A stretch of 64,000 nt of DNA from contig CACKOU010000002.1 of assembly GCA_902601895.1 (NCBI GenBank), forward strand, positions 1-64,000, written 5' to 3'. Positions within the stretch are counted from its first letter, which is position 1; each line of letters starts with the position of its first letter. The notes beneath the pieces are model-generated. The model was not told the DNA's origin, did not search any database, and worked only from the letters and a program-made list of their open reading frames with translations. This document shows, piece by piece, positions 2,884-52,070 of the stretch. The DNA is from an uncultured Pelagibacteraceae bacterium (GTDB lineage Bacteria > Pseudomonadota > Alphaproteobacteria > Pelagibacterales > Pelagibacteraceae). The position numbers and the translations under genes were made by a program.

Positions 2884-3593
2884 TGACTATAGAATATTCA
2901 TTTTCACCTTCTGAGCTTGATTATAAAGCCAAGAAATGCTCAAGATGTTTTTATATTCATAAGCATAACAAAATTAATCCTGGAGATAGACCACCTCCAG
3001 TTTTTTCAAGTTTTGATGCAGTTCAAAAACCTTATTTTAAAAAAACAAATACAAAGTCTTGGTGCGACGACCTTCCAGATGGTGAGATTATGGATAGTAA
3101 TGAACTACCGGGCAAAATAGTATCTGAAGGTTTAGTTGATGATAAACAACGTAAATTTATCTTAGCTGGTAATCCTGATATTGTTATAAAATTTAAAGAT
3201 AAAAGTTTCGGAATAGTTGATTTTAAGACAACAGTAATTTCTTTAGATAAAGCTGAAAATTATAGGTTTCAACTGGAGGCTTATGCGCAAATATTTTCTA
3301 GCCCTGGATCAACCAAAAAAGCCAAAACACCAAAACTAAGTCCTATAACCCACATGGGTATTTTGCAATTTTATCCAGAAGAAATCACAAGCCATACTGA
3401 TCATGATTGTGATTTAAAAATGAAAACATCTTATTCCGCACTTAATAGAGATGAGAGTGGTTTTTATAATTATATAACTAAGTTAATAGATTTATTGGAG
3501 CAACCTAATATTCCAAGCTTTAACAAAGATTGTAATTTTTGCAATTTTACCAAAAAACAAATTGATTTGGGAGAACATCAAAATGAAAAATAA
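2883..3593 (+). CDS. PD-(D/E)XK nuclease, Cas4/RecB-like, with two Cys pairs
   Basis: The N-terminus (FSPSELDYKAKKCSRC) matches the start of AddB/Cas4-like nucleases. The core follows: Asp99 in GNPD, Asp113 and Lys115 in IVDFKTT (D-x-K), and Gln130/Tyr134 in QLEAY, which is motif IV of the RecB-like branch. Cys19/Cys22 and Cys217/Cys220 could together hold an iron-sulfur cluster or zinc, as in Cas4 and AddB; Cas4 usually has one N-terminal and three C-terminal Cys, so this 2+2 arrangement differs. Known relatives cut or resect single-stranded DNA ends. No Cas1, Cas2, CRISPR repeat or helicase is nearby, so a CRISPR role is not supported. The host pathway is unknown. Confidence 0.8.
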   Translation: MTIEYSFSPSELDYKAKKCSRCFYIHKHNKINPGDRPPPVFSSFDAVQKPYFKKTNTKSWCDDLPDGEIMDSNELPGKIVSEGLVDDKQRKFILAGNPDIVIKFKDKSFGIVDFKTTVISLDKAENYRFQLEAYAQIFSSPGSTKKAKTPKLSPITHMGILQFYPEEITSHTDHDCDLKMKTSYSALNRDESGFYNYITKLIDLLEQPNIPSFNKDCNFCNFTKKQIDLGEHQNEK

Positions 3594-3858
3594 ATTAGAT
3601 GAAATAATCAAAGAAAGATTAGAAAATAGACTCGAGTGGAGAAATTATCTTGGATGGTCTTTGACTCACAGAGATTTATATAGAAATGCTAAAAAAGAAT
3701 TTTATAAAGATAAACCTGTATTGGATCTTATTTTAAAATTGTATTTTCTTCCTTATAACACCATAAAGTATTTTAGTTATATTTGTGATCGTCATAAATT
3801 TGAAATGATTGAAACTGAAATAAGAATGTTACAAGAAAATAAAGATGAAAAAAAATAA
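3583..3858 (+). CDS. Hypothetical protein, 91 residues
   Basis: I chose the ATG at 3583, which overlaps the end of the nuclease gene by 11 bases and has GGGAG 9 bases upstream; an ATG 21 bases earlier has no such site. The product is helical, rich in Lys, Arg and aromatic residues (NRLEWRNYLGW, LYRNAKKEFYKDK), with a hydrophobic centre (LDLILKLYFLPYNTIKYF) that is short for a membrane helix. It has no recognised domain. Its place inside the nuclease operon suggests a linked role. Confidence 0.55.
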   Translation: MKNKLDEIIKERLENRLEWRNYLGWSLTHRDLYRNAKKEFYKDKPVLDLILKLYFLPYNTIKYFSYICDRHKFEMIETEIRMLQENKDEKK

Positions 3859-50796: not shown

Positions 50797-50874
50797 TGCT
50801 ACATATTAACAGATTAATTAAACATTTATATTTTTTTTATTGATTTTTTTCATCAAATATCCATATTTAATATC

Positions 50875-51195
50875 GTGAGTACTCAAAAAGCTAAATTTTC
50901 AATTGGAGATGTTGTAAAACATAGACACTTCGATTTTAGAGGTGTGATTTACGATGTTGACTTTGAATTTAATAACTCAGAGGAGTGGTATCAATCGATC
51001 CCAAAAAACGTTAGACCTAGAAAGGATCAGCCATTTTATCATTTACTAGCAGAGAATGACGAAATTACTTACGAGGCTTATGTGTCTGAGCAAAATCTAT
51101 TATTTGATGACTCTGAAGAGCCTATAAAACACCCTCTAATTAATGAAATTTTTTCAGGTAAGCGTGGATCAAGCTACTTTAAGCCTTCAAATTAA
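50875..51195 (+). CDS. hspQ: HspQ-like hemimethylated-DNA-binding heat-shock protein
   Basis: The 106-residue protein has the HspQ core KFSIGDVVKHRHFDFRGVIYDVDFEF, QPFYHLLAENDEITYEAYVSEQNL, and ends with HPLINEIFSG. HspQ adapts Lon substrate selection in enterobacteria. The start is GTG (50875). A stand-alone Lon-N-domain protein is elsewhere in the window. Confidence 0.93.
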   Translation: MSTQKAKFSIGDVVKHRHFDFRGVIYDVDFEFNNSEEWYQSIPKNVRPRKDQPFYHLLAENDEITYEAYVSEQNLLFDDSEEPIKHPLINEIFSGKRGSSYFKPSN

Positions 51196-51265
51196 CTAAT
51201 AGCCAATATTTAAACATAATTGTCCCAAATCTCTGTCATATCTTTTTGTTATAAAATATTTAATT

Positions 51266-51315
51266 CTGATCAAGAGTACTGTTTTTCCTCTATCTCCCTC
51301 TGTATTCTTGGTCAG
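51266..51315 (+). ncRNA. 14-bp hairpin with pyrimidine-rich loop upstream of ccmC
   Basis: CTGATCAAGAGTAC pairs with GTATTCTTGGTCAG at all 14 positions (two G-U pairs). The 22-base loop TGTTTTTCCTCTATCTCCCTCT contains CCTCT and CTCCC, complementary to ribosome-binding-site sequence. It lies in the 167-base gap between hspQ and ccmC, 47 bases before ccmC. No T-run follows, so it is not an ordinary terminator. It could be a leader control element or small RNA. Confidence 0.55.
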
Positions 51316-51362
51316 AAAATTTTGAGCAATTTTAATCTAAAATTTATGTGTTATAAAAAATT

Positions 51363-52070
51363 ATGATTAATTATTTCAATCCAAATAATACTTTAAAGAT
51401 AATTAATAAAATACAAAAGTTTGTATTGGCGCTATTTATAATTGTATTGTTGCTTGGATTAGTTGAAGCTTTAGTTCTTTCTCCCGAGGATTATAAGCAG
51501 AGTGACTCAGTTAGGATTATGTATGTCCATGTTCCATCAGCTTGGATATCACTCGGAATATTTTCATTTATATCCATTCTTTCTTTTGGAGTTTTTGTTT
51601 TTAAAAATAAAAATTTCTCTTTAATAACAAAAAGTTTAGCACCTTCTGGTTTTGTTTTTAGCATAATAGCTTTAGTTACAGGATCAATTTGGGGAAAACC
51701 AACCTGGGGAACTTGGTGGGCTTGGGATGCAAGAATAACTTCAATGCTCTTACTTTCAATTTTTTATTTATTGTTCATTACTTCTTGGAAGATTACGACA
51801 GATACTAGTAAAGCAGAAAAAATTAGCTCAATAATAGCAATTATTGGTCTTATAAATATTCCAGTTATAAAATTTTCAGTAGAATGGTGGAATACTTTAC
51901 ACCAACCTGCGTCAGTAAAAATTTTGGAAGAAACAACAATTCATTCATCAATGTTGACACCATTAGCTATAATGACTGCGGCATTTGCTCTATTTTCACT
52001 TTTGATATTTTTAATGAAATATAATACAGAACTGTTAAAGATTAAAAATAAAGGTCTTAATAGATTATGA
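51363..52070 (+). CDS. ccmC: Heme exporter protein CcmC
   Basis: The 235-residue protein has six membrane segments and the heme-handling motif PTWGTWWAWDARITSMLLLS, flanked by VHVPSAWISLG (His) and NTLHQPAS (His). CcmC loads heme on CcmE. It heads the ccm operon; its stop overlaps ccmD (ATGA). Confidence 0.97.
   Translation: MINYFNPNNTLKIINKIQKFVLALFIIVLLLGLVEALVLSPEDYKQSDSVRIMYVHVPSAWISLGIFSFISILSFGVFVFKNKNFSLITKSLAPSGFVFSIIALVTGSIWGKPTWGTWWAWDARITSMLLLSIFYLLFITSWKITTDTSKAEKISSIIAIIGLINIPVIKFSVEWWNTLHQPASVKILEETTIHSSMLTPLAIMTAAFALFSLLIFLMKYNTELLKIKNKGLNRL

Follow-up and report, generated by a model that had tools for sequence, protein, structure and literature searches.

What does a strong hairpin with a CU-rich loop do in the gap between hspQ and ccmC of a Pelagibacteraceae genome: is it an RNA in its own right, or does it serve one of the two neighbouring genes? 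In the window, that is, the whole stretch of 64,000 nucleotides that was analysed, this gap measures 167 bases, both genes are on the + strand and the hairpin lies between them. The first-pass annotation had described a fully paired 14-bp hairpin with two G-U pairs. This was confirmed, and the stem was found to extend two pairs beyond that description, to 16 perfect pairs (51264-51279/51302-51317) with the G-U pairs at 51270-51311 and 51276-51305. The loop sequence in the window is TGTTTTTCCTCTATCTCCCTCT, including CCTCT (51287-51291) and CTCCC (51294-51298). The features of the locus are as follows.

50875 to 51195, + strand: hspQ (YccV-like), the upstream neighbour; NCBIfam TIGR02097, E 1.1e-35
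51204 to 51249, + strand: promoter-like block; C at 51204, 51215, 51226 and 51237, in steps of exactly 11 bp, with A after each of the last three
51250 to 51255, + strand: -10-like box TATAAA, consensus TAnnnT, with conserved T and A in the blocks of relatives
51264 to 51279, + strand: 5' stem arm, from sequence and fold; pairs with 51302-51317
51280 to 51301, + strand: CU-rich loop of 22 nt; conserved core TCTCCCT at 51293-51299
51302 to 51317, + strand: 3' stem arm, from covariation counts
51363 to 52070, + strand: ccmC, the downstream neighbour in most, not all, members; NCBIfam TIGR01191, E 6.4e-66

The + strand folded with an energy of -20.9 kcal/mol, compared with -7.8 +/- 2.4 kcal/mol for shuffled versions (z -5.5), and none of 200 shuffles was as good. 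The - strand reached merely -12.3 kcal/mol (z -2.0; 10 of 200 shuffles), because the G-U pairs turn into A-C there. The G-U pairs of the same-genus hairpins favour the + strand as the RNA strand, as does folding. Within the window, 25 hairpins combine a TCCC loop with at least 10 pairs; the one between hspQ and ccmC has six G-C pairs, and all the others have two or fewer. A single hairpin dominated the centroid fold of the intergenic region and also the fold of each of 25 members, two of which showed a short extra helix within the loop. Loop length among members ranged from 17 to 37 nt.

Several other identities were considered. No tRNA or Rfam family overlapped the hairpin in an Rfam 15 scan, the permissive threshold included, and at gathering score a tRNA was the sole match in the whole window. 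The single open reading frame covering the hairpin (51220-51366, TTG start, 48 residues) was rejected as a small gene on the basis of the 17-37-nt loop lengths and the paired changes in the stem. A repeat element was dismissed since the hairpin is present as one copy per genome. The other match in the own genome corresponds to the AT-rich promoter part and is located within an open reading frame; in four same-genus genomes with a match, second matches up to E 0.03 were the opposite strand of the palindrome, and the remainder had E 0.1 or weaker. Carriage by phages was also discarded, with no matches in viral contigs for the one exact pattern searched.

In order to evaluate conservation, 60 same-genus relatives were searched; 46 contain hspQ and ccmC and 14 contain neither. 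With the own genome included, the hairpin lies between the two genes in all 47 genus-level genomes that keep both, at hspQ-ccmC distances of 147 to 188 bases. The hairpin pattern caught 45 of the 47 and missed G020 and G037, though the hairpin is visible in their alignment, and a later member scan flagged none of the 47 as lacking it. When the covariance model R1 was run against 397 genomes of the order, 281 gave a match with E up to 1. E was below 1e-6 in 249 of 271 same-genus genomes, a count that takes rows without a match as kinship-ordered. Ten of the remaining 22 were tested for hspQ and none has it, and an eleventh, G022, is also without it. In these eleven the locus is therefore missing or unassembled. 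The ten that showed neither hspQ nor a strong hairpin match (G119, G129 and G134 are examples) include nine that are 90-97% complete; the hspQ-hairpin locus may have been lost from these ten or may be hard to assemble in them.

A second set consisted of named loci, the best 80 of 583 hspQ matches, whose titles all read Pelagibacteraceae, Pelagibacterales or Pelagibacter. R1 found the hairpin in each of these 80, with the better-scoring match on the + strand every time. In the stretch from 41 to 190 bases past hspQ, the motif CTCCC was present in 46 of 47 same-genus genomes, 17 of 17 from other genera and 79 of these best 80 named loci. One named locus, L239, carries CTTCC instead of CTCCC; it was missed by the member scan and found by R1.

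The hairpin extends over the family. Eighteen genomes from seven other genera of Pelagibacteraceae were tested; hspQ was detected in 17, and all 17 have the hairpin, starting 66-81 bases past the hspQ stop codon. Linkage of hspQ and hairpin on the same strand thus covers 47 same-genus and 17 other-genus genomes. The stems differ strongly between genera (GTCCAGTTTGAAG/CTTCAAACTGGAC in genus g5, for example), and CTCCCT is kept in 17 of 17. In six genomes of the sister family f2, the hairpins seen beside hspQ and ccmC were all weak, with two G-C pairs at most, and the model R3 gave no match. Over 385 genomes of the class, R3 matched ten with E up to 0.1, three of them same-genus members. Both matches in g5 sit elsewhere than the real g5 hairpins, which R3 missed, showing that its sensitivity is limited. 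Neither hspQ nor ccmC is near the matches in L384, L386, L387 and L389. In G591, labelled as another family, an R3 match falls on a contig (L383) with a Pelagibacter-like hspQ-ccmC locus, and this contig is perhaps misassigned. The class-wide R3 search, at its limited sensitivity, gave no convincing member outside Pelagibacteraceae among the 385 genomes, and the hairpin has been found so far only in that family.

Covariation was determined at two depths. Alignment A1 holds 40 distinct hairpins from the 47 same-genus genomes, five duplicates as well as G020 and G037 being left out. Over its 15 pairs, 98.7% of cells were paired, with 42 double-change cells against 8.5 in shuffles. Alignment A4 joins 15 of the 17 other-genus hairpins (two near-duplicates were left out) to 10 of the 47 same-genus ones, giving 25 hairpins from eight genera. 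In this set, 16 of 17 pairs showed double changes that keep pairing, in 92 cells against 33 in shuffles, and the covariation score was 0.62; shuffled versions gave 0.32 and slid versions no more than 0.17. Relatedness is kept by the slid versions and lost in the shuffles. The check for covariation in other SAR11 genomes that had been proposed at the outset was therefore passed within and across genera, the stem being conserved with compensating changes; of the two refuting conditions set in the first-pass annotation, the one that required an unconserved stem was not borne out. Comparison among these relatives shows a + strand RNA hairpin under selection. The loop core CUCCC (mostly CTCCCT across members) is nearly fixed while the stem is replaced.

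The position of the hairpin would also fit a cis-acting leader at the start of the ccmC operon message, controlling translation, stability or elongation. Consistent with this, ccmC follows the hairpin on the same strand in 47 same-genus and 15 of 17 other-genus genomes, and a conserved promoter-like block stands upstream of the hairpin. The exceptions argue against it. In genera g10 (G328) and g12 (G430), with one genome each, the next gene after hspQ and the hairpin is PagL-like, recognized by Pfam PagL in g12 and as a similar protein by eye in g10. In both genomes ccmC is found on a different contig, and the 400 bases upstream of it contain no CTCCC. Because the hairpin is kept beside hspQ in two genera where ccmC is elsewhere, it is not simply, or not necessarily, a ccmC leader, and the role tied to the ccm operon that the first-pass annotation had put forward as a possibility finds no support in these genomes. 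In addition, the sequence from hairpin to ccmC looks poorly conserved by eye, and ccmC in the window has no Shine-Dalgarno sequence that the loop could cover. A leader function is considered unlikely.

The other neighbour offers a different explanation, in which the hairpin is a transcription terminator or a 3' stabiliser of hspQ. In every member examined in detail it comes directly after hspQ and shares its strand, and some T enrichment was observed at the fourth to sixth base after the stem. No intrinsic terminator was called in 50800-51500, however, and long T runs are few: runs of at least five T within 15 nt after the stem occurred in 14 of 90 distinct same-genus members. The combination of a GC-rich stem, a short loop and a T run directly after it was not found in this hairpin. 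Such a function would also leave unexplained the 17-37-nt loops with their almost invariant core, the 11-bp block and the -10 box, and it is regarded as quite improbable.

The sequence upstream of the hairpin was examined for signs of a dedicated promoter. All four C's of the block are kept in every one of the 47 same-genus genomes, as counted on an alignment made without anchoring on the C positions. They are also present in 17 of 17 other-genus genomes, and the first C in all of the best 80 of 583 named loci, both by anchored counts; the anchoring pattern contains three CA steps and so favours them, mismatches were allowed and three genomes were re-anchored. The last three C's are almost always followed by A. 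Alignment A3 represents 35 of the 90 distinct blocks. The T of the -10 box (position 37) was found in 88 of 90 distinct same-genus blocks and the A (position 38) in 87; the corresponding values for other genera were 16 of 17 and 17 of 17. The TA of this box is 13 bp past the last C of the block. Compared across relatives, the hairpin shows its own conserved upstream block and putative -10 box.

Of the 82 distinct same-genus members measured, 73 have a distance of 4-9 nt from the last base of the -10 box to the stem; eight more are outside this count. Transcription usually starts about 7 bases after a -10 box. Given these two distances, it is expected to start around position 51262, at the foot of the stem. 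In the named genomes L274, L281 and L282, whose loci were picked by eye, about 20 extra bases appear to separate the -10 box from the stem, giving distances of 27-32 versus mostly 4-9. A further observation concerns genera g7 and g11 (L180, L183, L184 and L185), in which ACAAACTTTGTCACATT stands directly after the stem and resembles the third CA step of the block; it may serve ccmC as a second promoter element.

Passages of PMC9275681 present tandem repeats near 10 bp as usual for OmpR-family regulators. The block has such a layout, with direct repeats in tandem at steps of 11 bp ahead of the -10 box, and it is likely to be a binding site, predicted from its spacing, for an OmpR/PhoB-family regulator. 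A model of the block, R2, gave one strong match (E below 1e-7) per genome in 8 genomes, at the hairpin locus. The next best match was in G109, with E 4e-4 and covering half of the block, and the remainder were weaker. With one strong match per genome, the regulon of the regulator could therefore not be read off. Candidate regulators are encoded in these genomes. The complete same-genus genome (G012) contains four OmpR-type DNA-binding domains, three of them in full-length response regulators (PhoB and two others). PhoB scored above its curated cut-off, and the other OmpR-type proteins of this genome reach no family cut-off; one of the full-length regulators looks ChvI-like, as we tentatively assume. 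Three OmpR-type proteins were found in the own genome, which is 84% complete, and none appears by eye to be PhoB. One of them, L376 on contig C3, has an OmpR-type DNA-binding domain and no receiver domain in Pfam, and is the counterpart of the fourth domain of G012.

These observations can be joined in one proposal. It is slightly more probable than its opposite, in our estimate, that the locus is a small RNA gene of Pelagibacteraceae, producing an RNA of about 60-75 nt with one hairpin from its own promoter, activated by the OmpR/PhoB family and acting in trans through an anti-Shine-Dalgarno-like loop. A response regulator of that family would bind the 11-bp-spaced sites and activate transcription from a start at the stem foot. 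The RNA would be one hairpin, its end perhaps aided by the somewhat T-rich stretch past the stem, and its loop would pair with the GGGAG-type Shine-Dalgarno of a few messages and block their translation in trans. A trans-acting RNA is favoured by the variable stem with its fixed CU-rich loop, as in NfeR1-like RNAs. The anti-Shine-Dalgarno reading in the first-pass annotation is strengthened in this respect, since the CU-rich loop is nearly fixed on a varying stem as in alphaproteobacterial anti-Shine-Dalgarno RNAs, and weakened in the part that gave it a role in the ccm operon.

Possible targets were searched in two ways. Complementary 11-mers (AGGGAGATAAT with at most one mismatch) occurred 331 times on both strands of 12 genomes, versus 404 for the reversed control. 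Among the matches listed, 32 hand-picked complementary sites included three with a start codon in range, one of which is inside a long open frame; the two remaining lie ahead of genes identified by eye, a probable periplasmic binding protein in G107 and a probable rpsN in G102. A pairing energy of -8 kcal/mol with the loop was reached by 6 of the window's 61 gene starts; the reversed loop also gave 6, and interior controls 35 of 305. Loop pairing was thus no better at the 61 gene starts of the window than in gene interiors, a comparison by which short seeds are not judgeable, and pairing to messages could proceed through such short seeds. The best-pairing gene start in the window, at -10.9 kcal/mol, belongs to a small gene at 3582-3858 with GGGAGA at ribosome-binding distance. 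By comparison of genomes the RNA element and its block are well supported; the targets are not.

The same searches bear on whether the CU-rich loop captures an RNA-binding protein instead of pairing with messages. A fixed loop on a freely varying stem would fit a protein ligand equally well, and neither the complementarity nor the pairing search gave an excess of targets. On the other hand, the loop resembles described anti-Shine-Dalgarno motifs, and we know of no protein that reads exactly this loop. The probability given to a protein ligand is low. Returning to the small RNA that pairs with messages, a more specific and rather doubtful extension is that Pelagibacteraceae possess a private circuit, in which the one-per-genome, four-step 11-bp site and its regulator drive a one-hairpin anti-Shine-Dalgarno RNA silencing only a few messages. 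Since few gene starts of the lineage pair well with the loop (6 of 61 in the window), the genes that do have a suitable Shine-Dalgarno would form its regulon.

SAR11 bacteria belong to the most abundant cells of the ocean. According to the abstract of PMC13198564, bacteria whose genomes are reduced in this way are believed to possess few transcriptional regulators and to rely on post-transcriptional control. If the proposal is true, a family-wide small RNA with its own promoter would give a concrete handle on post-transcriptional control in SAR11, and the compact design, with one hairpin and one regulator site, would allow a direct test in cultured strains. Other conserved RNA elements located between SAR11 genes are the structured RNA candidates reported for Pelagibacter ubique (Meyer 2009; passages of PMC2704228). 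Table 1 and the main-text parts considered from that paper name no region between genes called hspQ and ccmC, and the text portions considered from PMC5069720 do not mention a hspQ-ccmC hairpin. To the extent of these sources, the hairpin RNA is apparently undescribed in the Pelagibacter/SAR11 literature on small and structured RNAs.

Among known systems, ChvR of Caulobacter is a small RNA activated by the ChvI response regulator (passages of PMC9731502), and the complete SAR11 relative likewise encodes full-length OmpR-family regulators. However, the ChvI motif proposed in the same passages, TTGC-N3-GCAA (PMC9731502), is unlike the 11-bp-spaced block. SisA-D (alpha-R8) of Caulobacter differ in being a four-member family, in contrast to the single copy in SAR11, and the Rfam scan indicated no sequence relation. 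A parallel in design may be drawn to the alpha-r14 (NfeR1) and cuckoo RNAs, with three differences. They have three hairpins, whereas the SAR11 element has one; their motif is CCUCCUCCC, whereas the SAR11 loop core is CUCCC; and the SAR11 hairpin matches no Rfam model. Models of the alpha-r14/cuckoo families are presumably included in Rfam. Like the SAR11 element, these RNAs are alphaproteobacterial and keep a conserved anti-Shine-Dalgarno motif unpaired while their hairpin stems are highly different; passages of PMC10746234 describe variable stems and an ultraconserved motif in unpaired regions for known alphaproteobacterial anti-Shine-Dalgarno RNAs.
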